DNA of 64,000 nt from Anaerolineae bacterium (GTDB lineage Bacteria > Chloroflexota > Anaerolineae > Anaerolineales > Anaerolineaceae): contig JABLWW010000002.1 in assembly GCA_013178295.1 (NCBI GenBank), forward strand, positions 1 to 64,000. Reading direction: 5' to 3'. Below are positions 96-13,471 of the stretch, in pieces (the first letter of the stretch is position 1; each line of letters opens with the position of its first letter). Below the pieces are notes generated by a model. It searched no databases. It worked only from the letters and a program-made list of their open reading frames with translations, and was not told the DNA's origin. The position numbers and the translations under genes are program-made.

Positions 96-3000
96 TCAGC
101 CAACCGGTGAGAAAAGATAATGTTCTTCCAAATCACGTTGTTTTTGGTAAATAGCCTGATAACCTGCGGCAGAGAAAATATCCAGAACTTCTTCTTTTGT
201 TGAGGAAAACCCAAGCAGCAGTTTAGGATGTATTTCTATAAACACATATTTGGGCAAATGGCTGTTAAGGAGATTAACCATCCCCCGCAAAGCCAAAATC
301 TCTGCTCCTTCGATGTCCATCTTAATGACATCCGGTGCTGGTAGCTCACCCGAATTGACTTTTTCATCGAGTGTATACGTCTCTACTTCGACTTCCTCCG
401 TAAAACCTGTATTCACCAAAGACGGAGATTTGCCCGCGGTCCCATCAGTAAAGAGCTTTAACACCCCACCCTTATCCGAAACTGCCCAAGGAATCACAAT
501 GACATTCGTCAATTCATTCAACATAATGTTGCGCTCCAAGTGTTGCCGAAAGCCCACATCCGGCTCAAATGCAAACACCTGGCGGCATTTCCTGGCAGCA
601 TGAAGCGAATACACTCCAATACACGCTCCAATATCAAACAAAATATGACGAGAAGACAGCTTTTCCAACAAAAAACGTACATCTTCCTCTTCTTCGGTGA
701 CTCGATAACGTTCTGTTGGATTTGTAACCCTGAACTTCACCCCTGAAGGGAAAATAGCTTTGTAGAGAAAAATCGAAGGATAGTGATCAGGGTATCCATC
801 TTCCACTACCTTGGAATCCGCTGCTATTTTCTTTTGCTGGATCAGGTTATATAGACGGTTAGAAATCTCATCTGATGGATCAAGACGCAAAGCTTGCAGA
901 ATGATCTTCTCCGCCGCCTCCAATTCTGCAGCCATCACCAGCACACTCGCCAGATTAGAGTATGCCAAAACCGAATTTGGCTGCAGAGCCACCAGCCGCT
1001 GAAACACCAACTGCGCCTCTCTCAATTTTCCAAGCTTGCCAAGCACAGTGCCATACGTATTCAATAGCATCACATCCTGAGGAAAGCTCGCCACCGCACG
1101 CTGCAACCAATTCTCAGCGGATACCATATCATTTCGCTCCAAAAGCCCCCGAACATAAGCAAGTATTTTCTCGGGTGAAAACTCAAAAACCGTCCTACCG
1201 TCTCTAGCAGAAACTTCCGACTGAAACAGGTCCGGTGCATCTGCTCTCAGATCTCTACCCACCATTGCACGATATATCCCTGAACATTTCTCTGCCAAAG
1301 CGGAGGTTCGCAAAGAATGATGTCGCCTGTAAATCTCCAAATAAAGTTTCTGGATCGTTTCAAGTGTCAGTTGATTGCGTGATGTCCCCCTCTGTTTTAC
1401 CTCATACTCCGCAGTAACGACAGGAACATGAACAAACTTACCTGCAGACGCCAAACGTATCAACCATTCCCAATCCTCAAGAGCTGCCAGTCCTGTATCA
1501 AACCCACCAACAGAAGCAAGCACCTCTCGTCTAAACATCAACGTAAGAATAGGGATATAGTTATATGCCAAAAGATTTTCAAAGTTAAAGTCCTCGGAAT
1601 AAGTTACCTTGCGTTCGACTTCTTTTGGGCTCTCTGTGGAATAATCGAACACAGCTTCAATCGCATCAGTATAAGCTGCAACCACCTCTCTATTGTTCTT
1701 TTCCAAACAATCAACTAAAGTACGAATATGATGTGGATAAAATACGTCATCATCATCCAAAAAAGTAATGTATTTCCCCTGTGCTACAGAAAATCCTGTG
1801 TTTCGCGCCGCCCCAGCTCCTTGATTATGCTCATGAACGATATACCTGATTGCGCGCTCTTTCTCAAAATCGCGGATAACCCCACGAACATCCTCACCAG
1901 CATCATTGACAACAATGACCTCTAAATTGGAATAACTTTGCTGGGCAATAGAAGCCAAAGCACGTTGAAGATATTGTGGGCGATTATATGTAGGAACAAC
2001 AACCGAAACCAGGGGAGGCTCAAGCAACTGATGTATGGCCACAGCGCTCTCAAAACGTTCCAAATAATACCCCCCTGGATGAGGTTTGGAGCCGTCCTCT
2101 GCGCGCCAATACTTTTCTCTGGCACGCTCCGATTCAACAGCGGCATATTGTGGAAATTGATGTTCTACACTTTCCAACGACTCATAATATAAACCTAGCA
2201 CCTCAGGGATATGGAAAAACTCTGTCTTATCCGAGACGCGAAGCCAAAAATCATAATCTCCAGCGACTTTATAATCTTCTCCAAATAACCCATATTTTTC
2301 GTGCAGTTCTCTTCTCCACATTGGCTGGGGACCAATGAAACACACCTGGAACAATAATTTTCGGTCAAATTCAGGCCAGCGAAACCTTCCCACTAATGGA
2401 GCTGTTTCCAAATTTGAATTTTCCTGCCTCGTCACCGCACTGTCAAAATACACCACCCCAACTCGCTCATCTTGCTCAAGAACTTGAATCATTTTTTCAA
2501 ACGCCTGGGGGTGATGACGGTCATCTGTATTAGCGTTGGTAATATACTTCCCGCGCGCAATTCGAATCGCCCGATTCCATGCTGCATATATGGTCTCGCG
2601 CTCTTCAGTCCGAATGTATATAATATTTGAATATTGACGTTGAAATGTTTCAACTATCGCACGCTCGTTCTGTTCTGATCCACTATCTACCACAATAATC
2701 TCAAGATGATCTGCGATCGTCTGATTTTCCAGATCTTGCAAGCAACCAGCTAAAAACTTCTCCGAATTGTAAGTCGATACAATTGCCGAAACAATCACCT
2801 CGCCTTTGGAAGACTCGCCAACCCTCAATAAAGGCAAATCCTTCGACGCCCTCTCGATGATATTGAACAAATTCTCCCGAAATAGGTCAAAGCTGCTTTC
2901 TTGAATCTTCTTTCTACCTTTTTCAATCAGATCCATTCTCTTCTTTTCATCTTGCCACAAAAGCAACATACCTTGCTGAATAGATTCCGCCGAGAAAGGA

Positions 3001-4043
3001 TCAACCAACAAAGCAGCATCGCCCACCTGTTCTCTCACACCCCGTATATCAGAGGTGATCACAGGACAATCAAAATGCCATGCCTCTATGATGGGAATGT
3101 TTGTTGGGCCAAAAAACGTCGGGAAAACCAAAGCAACAGCCATAGAGTAAAGAGCGGGTACATCCTCCTCAGGGACATACCCCAAGTAGTGTATTAGATC
3201 AGCAACCCCCAGTTGCCGAGACAGGGTTACACAGTTTTGAAATACTAAATCTCTGCGCTCATGCCTTGGCCCCGTATTTGAACCGGTAAGGACAAGAGGA
3301 ATTTCTAAACCATATTCAACCCGCAGATTATGAAGTGCGTGAATCAGTCTCGCATGATTTTTGTGAAGCCAAAATTGAGCCGGGTAATATAGATATTTGT
3401 CAGGAAGCTGATACTTTTCCTTCACAGACCGGTTTTGTTGGACATTTCTGTAACTGTTTACTTCCAACGCGCAAGTGTAAGGTAGGGGAAACACTTTCTC
3501 CGCGCTGATTAAGTCGCCATAACAATTGAGCACATCTTCTTTGCCAACTTCAGAATCAACCAAAACTCCAGAAGCAAAATGAACACTATTTGCAAACAAA
3601 TACTCACGCCGAAACCATTCCCCCTCCGCCGAAACCTCTGGAAACTCAGGCTGCAAACGGTGCTGAAGATCATGCACTGCTGTCAAATATGGAATTCCAG
3701 CTTCAAAGGAATAAAAAGAGGGCGCCGGGTATAACATCAAGCTCACGTCAAAGGAACAGAGAAAATTCCTAAGCCGCCGATTAAACCCTTTTTCCTTAAC
3801 GAGCACAGAGCAACTGCCATCCTGTGTCCCACCTGACATAGACAAAACTGGTATATCCTTTGGAAAAATGACAACCTGCCAATCAGACTTTAAACCCCGA
3901 ACCATTTGAGCAGCAGTGTCCTTAGAAAGAAAAAGCGCTTTTTCTCCAATATTCCAATTGTCTAACGCGCGAATAACTGCTTGCGTGTATTGAAAAAGAC
4001 CACCCCCAACATGCGAATGCAAAGATAAAACACCTATTTTCAT
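96..4043 (-). CDS. multidomain glycosyltransferase (GT4-GT2-GT2-TPR-FkbM methyltransferase)
   Basis: This giant polysaccharide- or glycan-modifying protein has about 1315 residues. Visible domains in order: a GT4-type glycosyltransferase (about 1-400, beginning MKIGVLSLHSHVGGG); a GT2 domain (about 415-640, VSAIVSTYNSE); a second GT2 domain (about 675-900, VSVVVPTYNRP and a FLDDDD metal-binding stretch); TPR-like helices (about 965-1075); and an FkbM-type SAM-dependent methyltransferase (about 1130-1310, ILFDIGACIGVYS and IKMDIEGAE). The frame is open up to 4103, but the ATG at 4043 is preferred. It starts exactly at the GT4 fold, has GAGGG upstream, and avoids overlap with the preceding gene. 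Such fusions typically build and O-methylate surface or flagellin glycans. The nearby flagellar cluster makes flagellin glycosylation plausible (inference). The DNA looks more AT-rich than the flagellar genes. Confidence 0.85.
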   Translation of the reverse strand: MKIGVLSLHSHVGGGLFQYTQAVIRALDNWNIGEKALFLSKDTAAQMVRGLKSDWQVVIFPKDIPVLSMSGGTQDGSCSVLVKEKGFNRRLRNFLCSFDVSLMLYPAPSFYSFEAGIPYLTAVHDLQHRLQPEFPEVSAEGEWFRREYLFANSVHFASGVLVDSEVGKEDVLNCYGDLISAEKVFPLPYTCALEVNSYRNVQQNRSVKEKYQLPDKYLYYPAQFWLHKNHARLIHALHNLRVEYGLEIPLVLTGSNTGPRHERRDLVFQNCVTLSRQLGVADLIHYLGYVPEEDVPALYSMAVALVFPTFFGPTNIPIIEAWHFDCPVITSDIRGVREQVGDAALLVDPFSAESIQQGMLLLWQDEKKRMDLIEKGRKKIQESSFDLFRENLFNIIERASKDLPLLRVGESSKGEVIVSAIVSTYNSEKFLAGCLQDLENQTIADHLEIIVVDSGSEQNERAIVETFQRQYSNIIYIRTEERETIYAAWNRAIRIARGKYITNANTDDRHHPQAFEKMIQVLEQDERVGVVYFDSAVTRQENSNLETAPLVGRFRWPEFDRKLLFQVCFIGPQPMWRRELHEKYGLFGEDYKVAGDYDFWLRVSDKTEFFHIPEVLGLYYESLESVEHQFPQYAAVESERAREKYWRAEDGSKPHPGGYYLERFESAVAIHQLLEPPLVSVVVPTYNRPQYLQRALASIAQQSYSNLEVIVVNDAGEDVRGVIRDFEKERAIRYIVHEHNQGAGAARNTGFSVAQGKYITFLDDDDVFYPHHIRTLVDCLEKNNREVVAAYTDAIEAVFDYSTESPKEVERKVTYSEDFNFENLLAYNYIPILTLMFRREVLASVGGFDTGLAALEDWEWLIRLASAGKFVHVPVVTAEYEVKQRGTSRNQLTLETIQKLYLEIYRRHHSLRTSALAEKCSGIYRAMVGRDLRADAPDLFQSEVSARDGRTVFEFSPEKILAYVRGLLERNDMVSAENWLQRAVASFPQDVMLLNTYGTVLGKLGKLREAQLVFQRLVALQPNSVLAYSNLASVLVMAAELEAAEKIILQALRLDPSDEISNRLYNLIQQKKIAADSKVVEDGYPDHYPSIFLYKAIFPSGVKFRVTNPTERYRVTEEEEDVRFLLEKLSSRHILFDIGACIGVYSLHAARKCRQVFAFEPDVGFRQHLERNIMLNELTNVIVIPWAVSDKGGVLKLFTDGTAGKSPSLVNTGFTEEVEVETYTLDEKVNSGELPAPDVIKMDIEGAEILALRGMVNLLNSHLPKYVFIEIHPKLLLGFSSTKEEVLDIFSAAGYQAIYQKQRDLEEHYLFSPVG

Positions 4044-4072
4044 TCGTTTCACAACCCTCTTCGTTGGTTGCC

Positions 4073-4351
4073 TTATCCCTTCCTGCCTTTTTGCATAAGG
4101 CAAAATTCTACATAATCCGCCTGCTTAACTTTCCCCACCTTGCGAAGACATCGTATGCGCAAACTCTGTAACTGTTCAATCTCCGCATCCAAATACATTG
4201 CCTTGTCCAAATAATCAAGCGCTTTGGAATAATCCTCAGAAACCAGAAAATCTACCGCCTTGTTAAAAAACGACGCGGCACGTTTCCGAATGATTTGTTC
4301 CGTTGAAAGTCCCTCGTCAGAAGGAACAGTTACAGCAGCGAGCGTTTTCAT
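4073..4351 (-). CDS. small TPR-like protein of the glycosylation cluster
   Basis: This is a 92-residue protein. Its start is chosen at the ATG at 4351, whose A is shared with the TGA stop of the upstream TPR-glycosyltransferase (a TGATG overlap, typical of translational coupling). A GTG at 4372 in the same frame is an alternative. The second half (AASFFNKAVDFLVSEDYSKA and the following helix) looks like one and a half tetratricopeptide repeats with alternating amphipathic helices. No catalytic motif, signal peptide or membrane segment is visible. Its position between two glycosyltransferase genes suggests an accessory or scaffolding role, but the function is unknown. Confidence 0.6.
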   Translation of the reverse strand: MKTLAAVTVPSDEGLSTEQIIRKRAASFFNKAVDFLVSEDYSKALDYLDKAMYLDAEIEQLQSLRIRCLRKVGKVKQADYVEFCLMQKGRKG

Positions 4352-6000
4352 CAAACCACTAATGACTTCCACATCTTCGCAATTTCTGCACTCTCACGAG
4401 TCTCGGCCTTCAATCTACCCTCCTCACCCAGCTTTTGGCGAAGAGAAGAGTCCTCATACAATTGCTTGAGAATTCGATACCAGCCGCCGTTCCTATCAAC
4501 AAAAATGCCACCCACACCCCATTCCTGATATGCAGGTATTTTTGAGGCAACCCACGGAATACGGCGGATGCCCGCCTCCATCACACGCACATCCGAGCGC
4601 GCATATCCATAAGGAGTGCGTTTGACCGGGCAGAGGAAAACATCGAATTGAGATAAAACATAAGGATAATCATCAAACGACGTGAAAGGCAGATACAAAA
4701 CCCGTTCTTCAGAAAGTTCATCAAAAATTTTGACTGCTTCTATATCTCCCCCCACGACCAACAATGCCTTTCGATGCTCTCGAATAAATTTTGTAACTTC
4801 ACCTTTTAACAGCATCAGATTACCGCGCTCCGTAGGTAAATCGATCCACCCCACATTGAACGTACGGTGCTTGGGAGCTGGCCTGTCCCACTGCGCATTA
4901 TCCTTGCTCCAACCATTTGGTATAACTTCCACGCGACGGGTATAGGTCTTATAACGGTCGGCAAGGATTGAGGAAGACACAGTAACCACATCGGCTACGT
5001 TCAACATTTTTTCAAAAATTTCTAAAGCTCTGGGATGTCCCTGCCCAACGATATTGAAGCCCGGGTGCGTGGCTGGCAAATTGTGAAAATCCTCATCAAT
5101 GTCAACAATAATCCGCTTCCCAGCGCGCATACATGCCTGAAAAGCATCCACCCACTCCTGTTTCAAGTGCGGACGAGAAAAGATAAACGTATCAGAAGAA
5201 GATATATCTTGAGAGTCTACATCACTGACATATTTGACCGACAAACCATTGTGCTGTAACGCCTGTGCCACGATCATCAACCGCGCCGCAGTAGCAAACT
5301 CAAATCCAGCATAAAAAACCACTTTTTTATCGCGAGCCATGCTAATGCGCAATCCTATGTCTTCCACTTTTGGCATCGTGCCATCGGCCGACGAAACTTT
5401 TGGCAAAAACGGCTGTTTGCCATCGCTTTGCTCCAAAGAAGATAATTTTGCAATCGCCCTTTGAGCAACTTCATTTTCTGGCTGGAGGTTAAGCACATAC
5501 TCATATAGCTGTATAGCAGAAGAATGCTGCCCGCCTTCCTCAAAAGTTGCTGCCAGAATCAAAACGGCTTCTATGTCCTCAGGGTCTTCCTCAACCAACG
5601 ACAAGAGAATATCCAACCCCTCGCGCACATGCTCCTCTTGCTTAACACACACAACCGCAAGACTCTTTTGTGCCAGGCGAAACGCAGGATCAATAGCCAA
5701 AGCCTTTCGGTAAGCCGTTTCTGCATGTTTCAGATCATCCATAGCCACATAAGCCAAGCCCAAACTATGAAGCGCCTCTGGCGAGTCAGGCAATAGAGAT
5801 ACAAGCTTTTCAAAACAAGCTACCGCTTCTTCTGCTCGCCCTAATTGCAACAAACAAACACCCAACCCGTTAAGTAATCCGGGATGTTCTGGTTGAAAAC
5901 GTTGCGCCTGAACCAACTTTTGGTATGCTGCCAACCAATTACCGCTATCCGCCGAGAGGTTTGCTTGCTCTATTAACTCATCAATTTGTTCCGATGCCAT
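4351..6000 (-). CDS. TPR-containing glycosyltransferase
   Basis: This 549-residue protein has four to five TPR units at its N-terminus (about 10-200; repeated patterns such as AYRKALAIDPAFRLAQ). A GT4-like glycosyltransferase half follows (about 220-549), with a VDIDEDFHNLP stretch, VIPNGW after the interdomain hinge, and VMEAGIRRIPWVAS near the end, where GT4 enzymes bind the nucleotide sugar. The start at 6000 has AAGGA upstream; the frame extends to 6057 without a better signal. It is a clear paralogue of the TPR-glycosyltransferase at 9840-11504 (same architecture, same NGW/EGW and EAGIRR motifs). TPR-fused glycosyltransferases often modify protein targets. With the flagellar genes nearby, flagellin or surface-protein glycosylation is the best guess. 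Confidence 0.8.
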   Translation of the reverse strand: MASEQIDELIEQANLSADSGNWLAAYQKLVQAQRFQPEHPGLLNGLGVCLLQLGRAEEAVACFEKLVSLLPDSPEALHSLGLAYVAMDDLKHAETAYRKALAIDPAFRLAQKSLAVVCVKQEEHVREGLDILLSLVEEDPEDIEAVLILAATFEEGGQHSSAIQLYEYVLNLQPENEVAQRAIAKLSSLEQSDGKQPFLPKVSSADGTMPKVEDIGLRISMARDKKVVFYAGFEFATAARLMIVAQALQHNGLSVKYVSDVDSQDISSSDTFIFSRPHLKQEWVDAFQACMRAGKRIIVDIDEDFHNLPATHPGFNIVGQGHPRALEIFEKMLNVADVVTVSSSILADRYKTYTRRVEVIPNGWSKDNAQWDRPAPKHRTFNVGWIDLPTERGNLMLLKGEVTKFIREHRKALLVVGGDIEAVKIFDELSEERVLYLPFTSFDDYPYVLSQFDVFLCPVKRTPYGYARSDVRVMEAGIRRIPWVASKIPAYQEWGVGGIFVDRNGGWYRILKQLYEDSSLRQKLGEEGRLKAETRESAEIAKMWKSLVV

Positions 6001-6060
6001 AGAAATCGTCCTTTTCAGCAACTTTTTGACATCCCAAGCACAATGCCTGCATAACAATCA

Positions 6061-6074
6061 AATCATATATGATT
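6061..6074. promoter_or_regulatory. perfect 14-bp palindrome upstream of the TPR-glycosyltransferase
   Basis: AATCATATATGATT is a perfect dyad in the 108-base gap between the cupin gene and the downstream glycosyltransferase gene. Read on the minus strand it lies about 60 bases before the ATG at 6000, inside an AT-rich stretch that could contain a promoter. It could be a repressor operator or a weak hairpin. No regulator family is recognised. Confidence 0.35.
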
Positions 6075-6108
6075 CAATCAAAAAAATCAAAGAATTTTCT
6101 GTAAAAAA

Positions 6109-6531
6109 TCAGAACATTTCCTTTTCCACCAGCCCGGTATACGGACCTTGTTTTATTTCCAAAAACACCGTATCCTCCAGACAGCGAAAACCATGTCCGC
6201 CAGCTACAAGGATAATCAGGTCACCAGCCTTCAGCAGCCAGGAACCCAGCGCAGATTTATCCAGGGCATACAAATCAACGATTGCTCTTCCCTTTTGGAC
6301 AAAAAGCGCCTCAGAAGTCCCCACCAGATGACGCTGGATGGGTAAGTGGATATGCCTCTTGACCTCACCACCTTCCGGGTAGACAACAAACCCTACCTGT
6401 TGATAGTAACTTTCGGGGGTTACAAAAGTAGTCTTATCCGGCAAATTACCTGGGCGGATAATCGTGGCAATATGCTGATCATGCCAGGTAATATGCTCAA
6501 TCGTCTCACCAGTCTCTCTAATGTCATCCAT
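6109..6531 (-). CDS. small cupin-fold protein of the rhamnose operon
   Basis: This 140-residue protein has a single predicted cupin beta-barrel. The stretch VVYPEGGEVKRHIHLPIQRH supplies the histidines of the first cupin motif, and LKAGDLIILVAGGHGF matches the second motif (PGDxxxxPxGxxH-like). The ATG at 6531 overlaps the TGA of rmlD by 8 bases, so the gene is translationally coupled to the dTDP-rhamnose operon. Small cupins of this kind occur in nucleotide-sugar clusters as isomerases, epimerases or accessory binding proteins. The substrate cannot be told from sequence. Confidence 0.75.
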   Translation of the reverse strand: MDDIRETGETIEHITWHDQHIATIIRPGNLPDKTTFVTPESYYQQVGFVVYPEGGEVKRHIHLPIQRHLVGTSEALFVQKGRAIVDLYALDKSALGSWLLKAGDLIILVAGGHGFRCLEDTVFLEIKQGPYTGLVEKEMF

Positions 6532-7417
6532 GTTTTGGTATATCCTCCATCGCCATTTGTAAAGCCAGCCGCCAGTGCGGCAGTTTTAAACCAAAGGTCG
6601 AGAAAAATTGGGTGCAATCCAGCGCACTCATTGGCGGGCGTCTGGCAGGAGCAGGAAACTCAGCGGAGGAGACCGGCAACAATTCAACCTGCCTGTCCCC
6701 GGAGGTCAGCCCTGCAAGCTCTAGAACCGCCTGTGCCCACTCAAAACGGCTGACGGCACCATCCCCCGCCAGATGATAAACACCCTTCCGTTCGTTAACC
6801 CAGCGATAGATATCCCCCATCCCCATTGCAATCAATTGGGCGCAAATCTCCGCCAGCAGCCGTGACCATGTGGGGCTGCCCACCTGATCATCAACCACCC
6901 GCACGACCTTGTTCTGGCTCGCCCATGTCAACACCTTATTGACAAAGGTATCCCTCCGCAGGCTATACACCCAACCCGTACGCAAGATGAGATACGCCCC
7001 ATCCATGTCCTGAATAGCTCTCTCTCCCTCAAGTTTTGTCATGCCGTACACATTGAGCGGCAAAGGAGTATCCGTTTCAACATACGCCGAAGACTTGTTG
7101 CCATCAAAAACATAATCGGTCGAAAAGTGAATAAACGCCACCCGTCGTTTTTTTGTCTGCCGCGCTATTTCGGCTGGAGCCGCCGCGTTCACCAGATGCG
7201 CCCGCTGCCGTTCTGTCTCAGCGCGATCTACTGCAGTATAAGCAGCTGTGTTGATCACCACATCTGGCTGATAAACATCCAAAAGCTCAGCAACAAGCTC
7301 CGTGCGCTCCAGGTCAAGCTGGTCACGTCCCAGCGCAATCACATCCCCAAAACAGCATAATGTGCGTTGCGCTTCCCAACCAACCTGACCATTCTTGCCC
7401 AGAAGGAGCAATCTCAT
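6524..7417 (-). CDS. rfbD: dTDP-4-dehydrorhamnose reductase
   Basis: This is the last enzyme of dTDP-L-rhamnose synthesis, a cytoplasmic NAD(P)H-dependent reductase that converts dTDP-4-keto-L-rhamnose to dTDP-L-rhamnose. The 297 residues match the family length. The N-terminus [11 protein letters not shown] is the dinucleotide-binding GxxGxxG-type loop, FSTDYVFDG carries the conserved Ser/Thr-Asp pair, and YGMTKLEGE is the YxxxK catalytic motif of extended SDR enzymes. The start overlaps the rmlA stop by 4 bases (ATGA). The operon order on this strand is rmlC, rmlA, rmlD. Confidence 0.95.
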
Positions 7418-8295
7418 GGCAAACGCCGTTTTTCTTCGAGCAAACGCAACAGATAAGCCCCATAACTGTTATTTGACATCTTCTCTGCCAAAGAACGCAA
7501 ATCATCCGCCGAGATATATCCGTTGCGATAGGCAATCTCTTCAGGGCAGGCAATCATCAAGCCCTGCCGGTCTTCGACTGCCTGAACAAAATTAGCCGCC
7601 TGCAAGAGTGATTCATGCGTGCCGGCGTCCAGCCAAGCAATCCCTCTACCAAGCACTTTGACATACAACTTCCCCTCGTTAAGGTACAGGCGATTCAAGT
7701 CTGTAATTTCCAGCTCTCCTCGTGCCGAGGGCTTGAGGGTTTTAGCAAGATCACACACACGCTCATCATAAAAATACATTCCAGGCACCGCATAATTCGA
7801 GCGCGGTTTTGCCGGCTTCTCCTCAAGACTCAGCGCCCTATCCTGCGCATCAATCTCGATCACTCCATAGCGCTGCGGGTCGCGCACCGGATAAGCAAAA
7901 ATGACTGCCCCTTGTTTGACCTGCGTGGCAGAGCGCAAAACTGGCGCCAGCCCGCTACCGTAAAAAATATTATCACCCAAAATAAGCGAAACAGGATTAC
8001 CGTTGATAAATTCGCTCCCGATGAGAAATGCCTCAGCCAGCCCGCGCGGTTCCTGCTGCTCCGCATAGTGAAACGCAAGCCCCCATTGGCTGCCATCCCC
8101 CAGCAGACGACGGAAAAGCGGCAAATCCTCCGGCGTGCTGATCACCAGAATCTCGCGAATACCCGCCAGCATCAGCATTGACAGTGGATAGTAAATCATC
8201 GGCTTATCATATACAGGGAGCATTTGCTTGCTCACCCCCAAAGTCAACGGATGCAATCGCGTACCTTTGCCACCTGCGAGAATAATCCCTTTCAT
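7414..8295 (-). CDS. rfbA: glucose-1-phosphate thymidylyltransferase
   Basis: RmlA joins dTTP and glucose-1-phosphate to make dTDP-glucose, the first step of the dTDP-rhamnose pathway. The 293 residues match the short RmlA form. The nucleotidyltransferase signature [16 protein letters not shown] is at residues 3-18, [15 protein letters not shown] follows, and [10 protein letters not shown] supplies the metal-binding Asp. GAGG lies 7 bases before the ATG at 8295. It overlaps rmlD by 4 bases and follows rmlC by 9 bases. Confidence 0.96.
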
Positions 8296-8304
8296 AGTTT
8301 ATCC

Positions 8305-8853
8305 TCAGTCATACAACTCTGCCTCAGCAAATTTTACTCCTTTACAATCCTTCTCAGAAAGAAGCAGGGGGACACCAGCTAACAAAGGCCATTCAATGGC
8401 AAGCTGCGGATCAGACCACAAAATAGTACGTTCCCATTGAGGAGCATAATAGTCTGTGGACTTATAAGCAACTTCTGCCCACTCACTCAACACGTAAAAA
8501 CCATGTGCAAAACCAGCCGGGATCCAGGTCTGCAAACGATTTTCCGCCGAAAGGCGAACCCCTACCCATTTCCCAAAAGTTGGCGAGCTGCGCCGCAAAT
8601 CTACCGCCACGTCATACACTTCCCCAACCAGCACCCAGACCAGCTTTCCCTGAGGTTGTCGGATTTGGTAATGTAAGCCGCGCAAGGTTCCCTGTCGAGA
8701 GCCTGAGTGGCTATCCTGCACAAATTCGGCGTTCAACCCCGCCTCGGCATATCGCCTTTTATGATATGTCTCCAAAAAAAATCCCCGCTGATCACCAAAA
8801 ACTTTGGGATTTATGATCAACACTGAGGGAATCGGTGTTGCCAGAATTTCCAT
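8305..8853 (-). CDS. rfbC: dTDP-4-dehydrorhamnose 3,5-epimerase
   Basis: RmlC is a cupin-fold epimerase that inverts C3 and C5 of dTDP-4-keto-6-deoxyglucose. The 182 residues match the family. Visible family motifs are FGDQRGFFLETY near residue 20, the QDSHSGSRQGTLRGLHYQ stretch with the catalytic His, and WIPAGFAHGFYVLSE. It starts 16 bases after the SUMF1-domain gene with no strong ribosome-binding site, so it is probably read from the same transcript. The pathway enzyme RmlB (dTDP-glucose 4,6-dehydratase) is not in the window. Confidence 0.95.
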   Translation of the reverse strand: MEILATPIPSVLIINPKVFGDQRGFFLETYHKRRYAEAGLNAEFVQDSHSGSRQGTLRGLHYQIRQPQGKLVWVLVGEVYDVAVDLRRSSPTFGKWVGVRLSAENRLQTWIPAGFAHGFYVLSEWAEVAYKSTDYYAPQWERTILWSDPQLAIEWPLLAGVPLLLSEKDCKGVKFAEAELYD

Positions 8854-8869
8854 ACCCGCTTACAGCACA

Positions 8870-9700
8870 TTATTCCAGCGAACGGGCAATGCGAAACCCC
8901 AGAGACGGGGAGACATAATCAGGAATGTTGCCCTCCCGCGCAGCACAGCGTGCCAGCTTACGGGTATAATTCCATGCCCCGCCACGCACAACATAGCGAT
9001 ACTGCTCGCCACGCGCAGGTGGCGGGGGATCGGGATCATAGGGATAGGGCAACAGCGGGCTACTTGTCCACTCCCACACATTTCCGCACATATCCACCGC
9101 ACCCATCGGGCTGACACCAGCAGGGACATACACATCTACCGCCGATGTTCCCTCCAAACCACTTTCCAAGGTATTACAACGCCACGGATCAAAATCTTCT
9201 CCCCACGGGTAAATACGTCCATCCACGCCCCGGCAAGCCTTTTCCCACTCTGCCTCTGTTGGCAAACGATACTCCCGTTTGGTCGCTTTGCTCAACCAGT
9301 TACAATAGGCAACCGCATCATGCATTGACACCCCAACCACAGGATGCCGCTGGGTGCCCTCTGTGTATCGAAAACCAATCCACCCCTTAGGTAGCTTGTA
9401 ATTACTCTGGTAAATAAAAAGATAATACTCTTCATTCGTCACCGGGTATTTCCCAATCTCATAGGCTGGCAAATCCACCCAATGCTGCGGCTGTTCGATG
9501 TTAAACATGCCATCTTCATGCCACTCGCGTGCCCAATCCTCTTTCCAGTACAAGCGCATAATTTGTTCATCACTGGTACCCATAATAAACTCACCCGCAG
9601 GCACAACCACCATTTCAGGAAGCGGCACCTGAGCAGAGCTCTCCATGAGTCTCACAGTTGCTTTTGGTTTCTTTTTCTGAGGCGGGAACGACATTGCCAT
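8870..9700 (-). CDS. SUMF1/formylglycine-generating-enzyme-fold protein
   Basis: This 276-residue protein has a C-type-lectin-like SUMF1 domain over most of its length: VVPAGEFIMGTSD (about 30), PVTNEEYYLF, PVVGVSMHDAVAYCNWLS, RLPTEAEWEKACRG, GNVWEWTSS and RGGAWNY up to LGFRIARS at the end. Real formylglycine-generating enzymes carry a Cys pair around the RGGSF region. Here that region has Trp-Asn-Tyr and only one nearby Cys, so sulfatase activation is unlikely. Other SUMF1-domain proteins bind ligands or act as iron enzymes. AGGAGA lies before the ATG at 9700, and the gene heads the rml operon behind a good promoter. A role in surface glycan metabolism is inference. Confidence 0.8.
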   Translation of the reverse strand: MAMSFPPQKKKPKATVRLMESSAQVPLPEMVVVPAGEFIMGTSDEQIMRLYWKEDWAREWHEDGMFNIEQPQHWVDLPAYEIGKYPVTNEEYYLFIYQSNYKLPKGWIGFRYTEGTQRHPVVGVSMHDAVAYCNWLSKATKREYRLPTEAEWEKACRGVDGRIYPWGEDFDPWRCNTLESGLEGTSAVDVYVPAGVSPMGAVDMCGNVWEWTSSPLLPYPYDPDPPPPARGEQYRYVVRGGAWNYTRKLARCAAREGNIPDYVSPSLGFRIARSLE

Positions 9701-9782
9701 GGACTGTTTCTCCTGGAGTGATTTTTACGGATAACCGCTGATAAATCAGTTATGGATGCTACTGTATTTTAGCATAAGTTAA

Positions 9783-9810
9783 AGTATAGTATTTAACCGC
9801 CATTTTGCAA
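9783..9810 (-). promoter_or_regulatory. sigma-70-type promoter for the SUMF1-rmlCAD operon
   Basis: On the minus strand TTGCAA (9810-9805) and TATACT (9788-9783) are separated by 16 bases. Transcription would start near 9776, about 75 bases before the SUMF1-domain gene. A short dyad, CTGAT-TT-ATCAG, lies just downstream and could be an operator. Confidence 0.55.
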
Positions 9811-9839
9811 CAGATTTTCGAAAAAACCCTGTAGAAATC

Positions 9840-11504
9840 TCAGCTTTTTTTGCGGGCATTCGGCATTGTTAACACCTTACGAATGACACGCTGCCAGGCT
9901 TTTGACCACGACTGACTTTCTCTCAGCATTGCCTTCTGATGCCCTGCTTTTGCCAGCCGCGCCCGCAGTTCCTCATCCTGCACCAGACTCTGCATGTTTG
10001 TGTACCATTCATCTAACGTATACGCGATCAAGCCTCCGCTCCCCCACAACAGATGACTGGCTATCGGTGAAGCCACCCACGGGAGACGTCGTATCCCCGC
10101 TTCCACCAGACGGCGGTCTGAGCGCAGCTGATTAAACGCCGTGTCATACATTGGCACCAAAACCACGTCCATCTGCGCCAAAACACCAGGATAATCATCC
10201 ACATCTGCAGGAGGAAGAAGCGTCTTGCGCGCTTCAGGAACACTATCAAAAAGCTGATAAGCTTCAATATCCCCATAAATCACCAGGCGCGTATGCGGAA
10301 ACTCCCGCAACACACGAATGATTGCCCGCCGTATGGGCGCCACATCCTGCAATTGCCCTCTGAGAAGATTCAAGCCAAGGTTAACCGTCAAGCGGGCAGA
10401 GGGGGGACGTAGCCACAAGTGATTCTGCTGACTCCAGCCTTCCGGCAACACCTCTGTCTGGCAACCCTTGTTGCGAAACACATCTGCCAGCCCTTCCGAA
10501 GCCACACAGACCATATCCGCCAACTGCAAAACAGCCTGATAGGAGCGCACCCGCTCGGTAGTTGTCATGCCCATTTTCTCATGGTCCGGATGTTCTATCG
10601 GGAGCATTTCGAAGTCCATGTCAAAATCCACCACAATAGGAATACCACATGCCGCTGCAGATGCCATGCCTCGCATCAAGTTCTGGTCAATATGTGGATT
10701 GCGGACAATCATCAGATCACACCCCTGATAAGATTGGCTTTTTGCCTCCGTCTCACGGGTCAAATAATACCCAGCATACGAAAGGGCATCCACCAGCGCA
10801 CCCAGACGATATGGCGACTCGTGAGAATCAAACCCCGCCGCAACGATACGCAACTGTTTGGATAGAATGGGAGACTCCACATCTGTCTGTACGTCCGTGT
10901 TTTTAGTTTGCAAATCAAGCTGGAGCAACACATTGGCTAGCAAATTTTGCAATGAGTCCGCCAAATCTGTTTTGCCATCTGCGCGCGCCTGACGGATGTT
11001 AATCTCAATGAGAGCTGGCAACAAAACATCAATTTCGTCCAGATGTTCTGCTACTGCAAGCGCCGGGGATGGGCTTTTGAGATAGGCATCCAGAAGGGAT
11101 CCGGCTTTTATGACTTCCTCTTCCGAAACAGGTGTCGCACGCCCTGTCAGACGCTGGATCAAATGCGCCACAGCCTGAGGATCAGTGGGTGCACCCGCAG
11201 GGGCACTGGTCCCATCTACTTGATCGCCAGCCGCCAACATCTCAATGCGGCGTTGAATGTCTCGGCGCTCCGGGAAAACGCGCGAGGCTTCGCGATACAT
11301 TGCAAGAGCTGCCTGGCGCTCATTGACAACCAGATAAGCATCCCCCAAAACAAGCATGGAATCAACATCTTGAGGATACTCGCTCAGGATACCCGAAAAA
11401 ATCCGCAGAGCCTTATCAATTTGATTCTGCCTTAAATATTGACGCCCCTGTTCTTTCAGACGCTGAAGCCTATCCGTGTCCTGAGGCTGCAAAAGGTCTC
11501 TCAT
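9840..11504 (-). CDS. TPR-containing glycosyltransferase coupled to csrA
   Basis: This 554-residue protein is paralogous to the one at 4351-6000. TPR helices occupy about 10-120, a linker with a second helical section about 120-210, and a GT4-like domain about 225-554 (VVDFDMDFEMLPIEHPDH, VLPEGWSQQNHLW, LVEAGIRRLPWVAS). Its ATG overlaps the csrA TGA by 4 bases, so it belongs to the late flagellar operon flgM-flgN-flgK-flgL-csrA. That linkage makes it a strong candidate for glycosylating the flagellin or hook-associated proteins (inference). About 140 bases separate it from the downstream rml operon. Confidence 0.82.
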   Translation of the reverse strand: MRDLLQPQDTDRLQRLKEQGRQYLRQNQIDKALRIFSGILSEYPQDVDSMLVLGDAYLVVNERQAALAMYREASRVFPERRDIQRRIEMLAAGDQVDGTSAPAGAPTDPQAVAHLIQRLTGRATPVSEEEVIKAGSLLDAYLKSPSPALAVAEHLDEIDVLLPALIEINIRQARADGKTDLADSLQNLLANVLLQLDLQTKNTDVQTDVESPILSKQLRIVAAGFDSHESPYRLGALVDALSYAGYYLTRETEAKSQSYQGCDLMIVRNPHIDQNLMRGMASAAACGIPIVVDFDMDFEMLPIEHPDHEKMGMTTTERVRSYQAVLQLADMVCVASEGLADVFRNKGCQTEVLPEGWSQQNHLWLRPPSARLTVNLGLNLLRGQLQDVAPIRRAIIRVLREFPHTRLVIYGDIEAYQLFDSVPEARKTLLPPADVDDYPGVLAQMDVVLVPMYDTAFNQLRSDRRLVEAGIRRLPWVASPIASHLLWGSGGLIAYTLDEWYTNMQSLVQDEELRARLAKAGHQKAMLRESQSWSKAWQRVIRKVLTMPNARKKS

Positions 11505-11788: not shown

Positions 11789-13471
11789 CTACTGCAATGT
11801 ATCAAAAAGGGATAACGCAGTATTTGTACGCCCTGTTATATTAAGCACAGTTTGATATATCTTTTCTTGATTCAACACTTCGGAGATTGCCTCAGCCATG
11901 TTAACATCTTCGTTCTGCGAAAGCAGAGATTTAATCTCCAAGATGGCTTTATCTGCACGGTCAAAACTATCTGAAAGGTTTTTCATCCTTGCGCCATTAT
12001 CAGACGCGACCGTAGAGACACTGTTCAGCCATGTTTGCTGCGTGCGGTATTCGGTCTCAAGATATGTACGTTCCGGATAAGCCGGTGTTGTGTCGGGCTG
12101 GTCCAGCAAGACGTATTTCAGCCCTCCCATGCCATCCGGCACTAACGCGTGGGGGCGTGTATAATCCTCGGCATTAAGAATATCCCGCATCAGTATCATG
12201 TTATCAAACATGGTAGATATTTTTACTTTCTCACCAGTCACAGGGTCAGCCGGATCCGTAACAATGGTCTTGCCAAACGCTTCTCCTCCATTCACGTTGA
12301 CCACCATGCTCTCGTTAGGGGCAATTTCGCGCAGCATGACATTGTCATCACCTGAATACATCACCCGGTCACGATAGTATGCGGGGTACACATTGGGAAG
12401 TGTGGGATCTATAGAAACATTCACGTTCTTTAGTTTTACAAACGTAGGATCAGGACCCGTTGGCGTTACAATGCGGTTACCCCCAACGACAAAAGTGGGA
12501 AACGGATCTGTGGGGTTTTCCACCGCAACCCGCACACCATACACCATGCGCGCGTTCGGATCCGGCGGAACCGTCGGATCACCCGTACTAAAAACTGGCG
12601 GGGAACCGGGGGTTACCGTAACAGCTACACCGCCAAACGGCGGGGGAGGCGCTGCTGGATCAATGTTCACCCCTTCAACTGTATAAGGCATTGTTGGATT
12701 GCCAAGATCATCCACCTGTATCCGAAAGCCATCAACAGTAATCTCCGGGCTGGAAGGATTCTCTGGATAGATATTTGTGGTGCTGTTGACGCGAAAATAC
12801 GGCGGGCTGCCATCACCAGGGCGGAAGAAAGAAATCTGATTCCCATTCACAGTGATATTCAGCGGTTCGGCAGGGTCTGTGAGAACCTGAATCCCCCCCA
12901 TGCGAATAGTGTTTGCTCCCTCATGGATAACGGGCATATTAGATTTGATATCTTTCACCTTGACGGCATCCACAGCCGCCGGATTGGTATCCAATCCCAA
13001 CTCAATCAGATTGCTCTGCGAGATCAGTGTAAAAGGCTTTGTATCTGTCTTAAGCCCTGAAAAGATATATCGGTCGCGATCCTGAGCGTTCAACACTGAG
13101 AGCGACTGTTCCACCAGCCCCGCCAGTTCATTTCCCATGACACTACGCTCGTCCGGGCCTTGCGTATCATCCAGCCCTTTGATAATAAGCGTCTGCACTT
13201 TTTTCTGGATGGTAACCATTTGTTGCAGCGAAGTATCCGTCATCTCCTGCCAGGTTCTGGTGGATGACATGGTGCTCTGATACACCTCAATATGCGTGAT
13301 GGTCGAACGCAACGCCATATTCTGGGTGGTAACCGCCGGGTTTTCAGAAGCACGGGCATATTTCTTCCCTGTAGCCGCTTTCTGCTGCAATTTATACAGA
13401 CGGTCAAGGCTATCGGCAATATTGGCTATGTTGGTATCCGCCATCAACTGATTGGTTATACGCATCGTCAT
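11789..13471 (-). CDS. flgL: flagellar hook-associated protein 3 (hook-filament junction)
   Basis: FlgL forms the junction between hook and filament. The N-terminus RITNQLMADTNIANIADSLD and the C-terminal helix (LLSQNEDVNMAEAISEVLNQ, then ALSLFDTLQ) are the flagellin-like D0/D1 coiled-coil ends. At 560 residues it is nearly twice the usual size of about 300. The extra part (about 205-375) is a Pro/Val/Gly-rich run of degenerate 30-40-residue beta repeats with cores such as ITVNGNQI, ITVDGFRI, MVYGVRVAV and FVVGGNRI. This would be an outward-facing variable domain. The ATG at 13471 has GAGGTG upstream. It lies between flgK and csrA in the sigma-28-type operon. Confidence 0.92.
   Translation of the reverse strand: MTMRITNQLMADTNIANIADSLDRLYKLQQKAATGKKYARASENPAVTTQNMALRSTITHIEVYQSTMSSTRTWQEMTDTSLQQMVTIQKKVQTLIIKGLDDTQGPDERSVMGNELAGLVEQSLSVLNAQDRDRYIFSGLKTDTKPFTLISQSNLIELGLDTNPAAVDAVKVKDIKSNMPVIHEGANTIRMGGIQVLTDPAEPLNITVNGNQISFFRPGDGSPPYFRVNSTTNIYPENPSSPEITVDGFRIQVDDLGNPTMPYTVEGVNIDPAAPPPPFGGVAVTVTPGSPPVFSTGDPTVPPDPNARMVYGVRVAVENPTDPFPTFVVGGNRIVTPTGPDPTFVKLKNVNVSIDPTLPNVYPAYYRDRVMYSGDDNVMLREIAPNESMVVNVNGGEAFGKTIVTDPADPVTGEKVKISTMFDNMILMRDILNAEDYTRPHALVPDGMGGLKYVLLDQPDTTPAYPERTYLETEYRTQQTWLNSVSTVASDNGARMKNLSDSFDRADKAILEIKSLLSQNEDVNMAEAISEVLNQEKIYQTVLNITGRTNTALSLFDTLQ

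Follow-up and report, generated by a model that had tools for sequence, protein, structure and literature searches.

A lineage-specific Pro/Val/Gly-rich insert in the flagellar hook-associated protein FlgL of an Anaerolineae bacterium

Introduction

The FlgL proteins of the hook-filament junction vary considerably in size. According to the accessible part of one study, they comprise 317 residues in Salmonella, 410 in Burkholderia and 750–950 in Campylobacter and related organisms, and divergence of FlgK is also described there (PMC5691160). The accessible text of a second study gives Bacillus cereus FlgL as consisting of D1 only and Xanthomonas FlgL as D1 plus a D2 beta-sandwich that splits helix alpha3 and was modelled as exposed; this 'variable D2 domain' was proposed to strengthen the junction (PMC6155364). 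In the available portion of a third, the Salmonella junction holds 11 FlgL molecules with their D1 helices buried and D2 exposed, and Campylobacter jejuni FlgL carries a bulky D2 (PMC12221982). A first-pass annotation of the DNA described here held that the junction usually varies little, which the sizes of 317–950 residues and the accessory D2 domains reported in the accessible parts of these sources (PMC5691160, PMC6155364) contradict.

Here we describe a long FlgL encoded in a stretch of 64,000 nucleotides (the window) from Anaerolineae bacterium assembly GCA_013178295.1, contig JABLWW010000002.1. Our preferred reading, to which we give a probability of roughly 60%, is that of a standard FlgL ring protein carrying a lineage-specific accessory segment of ~215 residues that works as a D2-like outer domain. 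The finding is real but modest because extra FlgL segments are already known, and since the general kind (long FlgL, D2) has been published, the contribution of the present case is an insert without a match, found in a new lineage. Among the matches listed by a literature search, none dealt with this insert or with FlgL size in Anaerolineae.

Results and discussion

A FlgL ring protein with an additional segment

The product of window positions 11789–13471 is an ordinary FlgL ring protein plus an additional segment (Table 1). Its TIGR02550 match scored 166.4 bits, above the curated cut-off of 127.2, its PF00669 match covered residues 6–139, and its model aligned with the D0/D1 helical core of solved FlgL structures (9go6_P, Z 21.3, rmsd 3.1 over 268 residues; 3pwx_A, Z 19.8, rmsd 2.1 over 223). 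The genes flgN, flgK and flgL follow one another on the minus strand, in the same order as in loci L079–L088. The initial assignment of the gene as flgL was therefore borne out by both family models, by the solved structures and by the flgK-flgL order. No other FlgL was found in the genome (G000), where a self-search at E 0.001 returned only the protein's own match. Flagellin as an identity for the 560-aa protein was ruled out by the TIGR02550 match, and the separate flagellin gene of this genome sits on contig C9.

The short FlgLs of the family (294–322 aa) aligned with residues ~3–155, 370–400 and 470–559, which defines residues ~156–369 as the insert, with some spread in the ends of the matches on the window protein. 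The insert, first estimated at ~170 residues, is thereby corrected to about 215. Its description as rich in Pro, Val and Gly was supported by composition, with 15.4, 12.6 and 8.4%, respectively, versus 2.0, 4.7 and 4.0% in residues 1–150. Whether FlgL is 'nearly twice normal length' depends on the reference: this holds against the close relatives of 294–322 aa and fails against the FlgL-type NCBIfam models, which span 287 to 827 positions. Because the insert is flanked by conserved D1 segments, is in frame and is present in a sister FlgL (locus L078, see below), we consider it bounded and lineage-specific. An assembly artefact was rejected given the in-frame insert in another metagenome-assembled genome (MAG), the lack of any N and a GC content of 51.9% versus 49.7% in the window. 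The second, smaller expansion (residues 401–469) was 38.5% identical between the window FlgL and L078 over aligned positions.

Table 1 Features of the flgL and flgK genes in the window.
Feature	Residues	Coordinates	Strand	Evidence
flgK, expanded by Pro-rich stretches	560 aa	13494..15176	-	TIGR02492 E 3.6e-87
flgL, flagellar hook-associated protein 3	560 aa	11789..13471	-	TIGR02550 E 1.2e-48; PF00669 E 6.4e-10
D0/D1 N-terminal helices	1–150	13022..13471	-	Aligned in 25/25 FlgL; pLDDT 84–96 (51–150), 52–69 (1–50)
Pro/Val/Gly-rich insert, between 'KPF' strand and 'Y-GD' hairpin	~156–369	12365..13006	-	Absent from short relatives; common to L033/L078
Candidate repeat unit W1	201–241	12749..12871	-	Profile match 205–229, 6.5 bits (whole-protein run 4.5)
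Candidate repeat unit W2, marginal	240–279	12635..12754	-	Profile match 241–261, 5.3 bits in insert run
Candidate repeat unit W3, best kept	304–342	12446..12562	-	Profile match 304–337, 17.6 bits (whole-protein run 15.2)
Conserved D1 hairpin 'YSGDDNVMLREIAP'	within 370–400	12272..12364	-	Many short relatives match directly after insert; pLDDT 85–87 (371–400)
Second, smaller expansion	401–469	12065..12271	-	Mostly gaps vs short relatives; partly common to L078
D1/D0 C-terminal helix	470–560	11789..12064	-	35–46% identity, C-terminal matches of family FlgLs

Distribution among relatives

Relatives were collected at four taxonomic depths. At family level, matches were obtained in 19 of 147 genomes. 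Once the window genome and G331, whose match was of flagellin type, had been set aside, 17 genomes with a FlgL remained, 16 of them with proteins of 294–322 aa and one with a protein of 553 aa. The latter belongs to Anaerolineae bacterium MS_R1_8 (L078, JAJTBH010000020.1; the same protein as L033 of G252), the sole other sampled genome with the insert. Comparing insert length among relatives, as had been recommended from the outset, thus confined the insert to the window and MS_R1_8, the short relatives being without it. One of the 16 short family FlgLs (L043 of G259) has a clostridial look, with ends resembling L089/L091, and may be a contaminant. The order search matched 50 of 400 genomes, 30 with loci (27 new ones were read) and 20 judged by frame length alone (297–345 aa); no further insert of the window kind was seen among the FlgLs of these 50 genomes. 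Exceptions in length were L130, with 383 aa and an extra part at another place, and L127, with just 244 aa. In L144 (G951), whose genome consists of few contigs, flgL is split into three frames, through sequencing error or decay. The class search matched 25 of 396 genomes, and the FlgLs read there measured 291–318 aa, none of them long (L072 and L073 yielded no FlgL), while the phylum search matched 29 of 201 genomes and returned long FlgLs (394 to 601 aa) in other families.

A search of genome contigs with an alignment as query yielded 38 loci, of which 37 were taken on (L114 matched at the C-terminal end only); the same search with the window FlgL as a single query found no relative. Together with the window, 24 loci made up the FlgL alignment (n = 25). 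Leptolinea, Bellilinea and Anaerolineae MAGs are the relatives with names that the core has, and on this kinship the window probably belongs in or near Anaerolineaceae (Chloroflexota). Cores of the short FlgLs in this group (L079–L088, L093, L103) are 35–38% identical to that of the window over aligned positions, but the proteins have 294–322 aa and are without the insert.

Merging identical proteins gave 93 FlgLs, excluding copies or flagellin-type matches (L001, the window itself, L002, L003, L032, L049, L050 and L074–L077) and the two loci without FlgL. Six of these with coverage below 0.7 (L010, L012, L021, L026, L111, L115) were left out of the core-only tree (n = 87), in which the window and its sister paired with a FastTree local support of 0.998. 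The pair fell inside a clade with L034–L038 (Leptolinea type plus two MAGs) at a support of 0.971, the step between having 0.184. This distribution fits one gain of the insert, or one gain followed by losses. Identity between the window and L078 was 52.7% over residues 1–150, 37.6% over 151–369 and 44.4% over 470–560; on these figures the insert is faster-changing than the core, yet retained.

Entry site of the insert

All FlgLs of at least 330 aa (n = 20 among the 93) were mapped onto a profile built from 55 short FlgLs. Breaks fell near profile positions 145–175 (window, L033, L095, L107, L022, L023, L027, and, mapping less cleanly, L111 and L115), near 185–189 (L094, L099, L100, L104, L113) and near 199–219 (L010, L012, L020, L021, L026, L028). 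The zone used by the window insert is not unique to it because Petroclostridium (L095) and a Lachnospiraceae MAG (L107) share it. Overall, the window adds one lineage to the known large accessory segments of FlgL, which enter at more than one place in D1 (three zones in these 20 proteins). In another Chloroflexota family (f17: L010, L012, L020, L021, L026), FlgLs of 511–601 aa carry other inserts, which enter D1 at another position.

The FlgLs of Xanthomonas campestris (5ziz/5zj0) and Legionella (5yti, 7c7z) resemble the window protein in having the same D1 core (Z 19.2–21.1) plus an accessory D1 segment. Similarly, C. jejuni FlgL (9gsx, 750 aa; core Z 17.2) is long, with a large outer part formed by its bulky D2. 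The large extra segment in the solved Legionella and Campylobacter proteins comes after the 'Y-GD' hairpin, however, whereas the window insert comes before it, and the C. jejuni segment is bigger. In Xanthomonas and Legionella, the extra segment lies at or in alpha3 after the hairpin (for Xanthomonas, according to the accessible text of PMC6155364), and the window insert has neither a sequence match nor a confident fold match to it. Since it precedes the hairpin, the insert does not occupy the position of a D2 of the Xanthomonas FlgL type.

Loose internal repeats

The first-pass annotation described a degenerate motif repeated about five times and named self-similarity as the check. The best off-diagonal self-alignment of the window insert scored 72, exceeding shuffled sequences (means 37.6–38.2, SD 7.3–7.4), none of 60 of which reached this score for residues 185–400 and one of 200 of which tied with it for residues 185–370. 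The insert of the sister likewise scored 72 (0/200 shuffles). A unit profile was then built from the three units of the sister insert alone, without window sequence. On the window insert it matched at residues 205–229, 241–261 and 304–337 with a total of 17.7 bits, which none of 500 shuffles reached (shuffle maximum 7.7), and three stretches exceeded 3 bits compared to a shuffle average of 0.02. Run over the whole protein, two stretches passed 2 bits, 205–229 and 304–337; unit W2 is regarded as marginal because no match above 2 bits was found there in this run. Among 93 FlgL proteins, including the long ones of other families, the best other score of the profile was 4.9 bits versus 15.2 in the window.

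Similarity between the window units was modest (W2-W3, z 3.5; W1-W2, z 2.1; W1-W3, z 0.8), and comparison with the sister units G1–G3 gave z 8.4 for W3-G3 and 4.3 for W2-G2, while W1 was nearer G3 (z 2.7) than its counterpart G1 (z 1.9). The pairing of W2 and W3 with their counterparts suggests that unit duplication predates the split of window and sister; W1 gives no such sign. Judged from the sequence, the insert is recognisable as about three loose units of ~40 residues, possibly plus half-units, and the repeat is weak. The self-similarity beyond composition thus stands, and the count of five is too high by this analysis. The MS_R1_8 insert lies at the same place, also with three units by reading of its sequence, and differs in having fewer Pro (8.9%) and more Ser+Thr (22.1%).

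Predicted structure and role of the insert

AlphaFold2 was run on the 25-sequence alignment, which is two sequences deep within the insert. The model of the whole protein had a mean pLDDT of 66.7, with ten-residue blocks at 84–96 over residues 51–150 and at 26–71 over the insert. Two-strand elements appeared at 204–216, 225–234, 243–253, 263–270, 308–317 and 326–335. Folded alone on the two sequences (mean pLDDT 40.1), the insert again gave four of the six (204–216, 225–234, 263–270 and ~307–316, without 243–253 and 326–335), a recurrence that is not independent because method and sequences were identical. AlphaFold2 therefore suggests, at low confidence, that the insert possibly consists of beta-hairpins. 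Structure prediction, which had been proposed to separate an ordered from a disordered insert, returned these low-confidence elements and demonstrated neither state. Foldseek gave no fold match for the insert model better than E 0.92, the model being too poor for a miss to carry meaning.

Alternatively, the insert may be a mostly disordered Pro-rich spacer, the hairpins being a habit of the predictor when given degenerate sequence of low complexity: pLDDT was below 50 at residues 164–198, 275–314 and 341–366, the mean for the insert alone was low, Pro reaches 15.4% and unit-to-unit similarity is weak. We nevertheless find a spacer quite unlikely, as the insert keeps 37.6% identity to L078, including a large number of Gly, Val and Ile positions, the sister-unit profile finds its matches in it, and low pLDDT is also expected where an alignment is only two sequences deep.

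Most probably, the insert forms a lineage-specific, beta-rich domain at the outside of the FlgL ring. It can reasonably be inferred to project outward from the hook-filament junction, by analogy with the exposed D2 of Salmonella FlgL in the available portion of PMC12221982. An exposed position of this kind, together with the predicted beta-hairpins and the loose repeats, would also suit an adhesive or binding domain whose hairpin units stick to particles, polysaccharide or partner cells. This is unlikely in our view, given that no known domain was matched in Pfam, PHROGs or PDB sequences and that 11 FlgL per junction, as the accessible part of PMC12221982 gives for Salmonella, are few copies for an adhesin. 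In these searches, Pfam returned nothing for the window insert and, for that of the relative, a single weak match to PAAR (E 0.32); PHROGs had no match for the insert, and PDB sequences gave nothing significant (best E 0.13). PADLOC returned no match for the whole FlgL protein, viral contigs none for the whole-FlgL alignment and plasmids none for the insert. In its own genome, the insert profile matched, besides FlgL, one protein at E 0.15, by reading kinase/beta-propeller-like, and this was judged a chance match. Across the 147 family genomes it found G000 and G252, plus matches in G283 and G285 (E 0.003–0.007) to proteins read as membrane-anchored and peptidase-like with TPR-like ends, which were likewise judged to be due to chance.

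The accessory segment sits in the D1 loop between the 'YIFSG..TDTKPF' strand and the 'Y-GD' hairpin. Each unit may form a pair of short beta-hairpins, and together the units would build a beta-rich domain that covers the ring on its outer face. Such a domain would act like the D2 known from other FlgLs: it would decorate, and might brace, adjacent FlgL and FlgK at the junction. The core would keep the job of FlgL, and the insert would tune the collar in its surface or its stiffness. The expansion of FlgK in the window raises the possibility that both junction proteins changed together. Of the 14 relatives whose flgK frame is whole, 11 had frames of 467–482 aa, versus 560 aa in the window, and the other three (L080, L081, L083; Leptolinea type) had 550–659, partly through upstream extension. 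Near the first expansion of the window FlgK, L081 and L083 have an insertion that is larger and distinct from it. The flgK of L078 is cut by the contig end, and its fragment of 192 residues partly shares the second expansion. The short-FlgL relatives L080, L081 and L083 also have shorter versions of this second expansion, and expansion of FlgK is therefore only weakly tied to that of FlgL.

A more far-reaching version is doubtful, namely that the units form a new tandem double-hairpin repeat family, placed at a D1 loop unused by the extra domains of Legionella, Campylobacter and Xanthomonas, co-evolved with the Pro-rich insert of FlgK and building an 11-fold collar that has its own mechanical or binding function in a small Anaerolineaceae group. 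If the repeats do fold and the co-change with FlgK is true, the two proteins would offer a natural case for testing how outer domains are tolerated or put to use at the junction.

Neighbouring glycosyltransferase genes

Downstream of flgL lie genes for a TPR-glycosyltransferase (9840–11504) and an FGE-sulfatase-like protein (8870–9700). The next three genes we take to be the dTDP-rhamnose genes rmlC, rmlA and rmlD, and beyond them lie two more genes for TPR or glycosyltransferase proteins. The run at window positions 96–11504 perhaps serves flagellar or surface glycosylation. Neighbourhoods were compared in 19 of the 38 named loci (L078–L094, L103 and L108), some of which, e.g. L088, carry little downstream DNA. 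The TPR-glycosyltransferase and FGE-like genes followed flgL in six of these 19, L078 and the short-FlgL loci L079–L083. Their presence beside short FlgLs indicates that the island marks a wider clade and not the insert, and a tie between island and insert was rejected on this ground.

The same genes bear on whether the insert carries O-glycans attached by the neighbouring TPR-glycosyltransferases. Glycosyltransferase-like genes adjoin flgL and, on contig C9, the flagellin gene, but we regard this role as improbable, in view of the short FlgLs of L079–L083 that have the same neighbours. Ser+Thr amount to 13.1% in the window insert versus 20.0% in its own D1, which also argues against a glycan carrier and is not decisive because the L078 insert reaches 22.1%. 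On contig C9 (L149, 1–9430), a further TPR/glycosyltransferase block lies directly before the flagellin and fliD genes.
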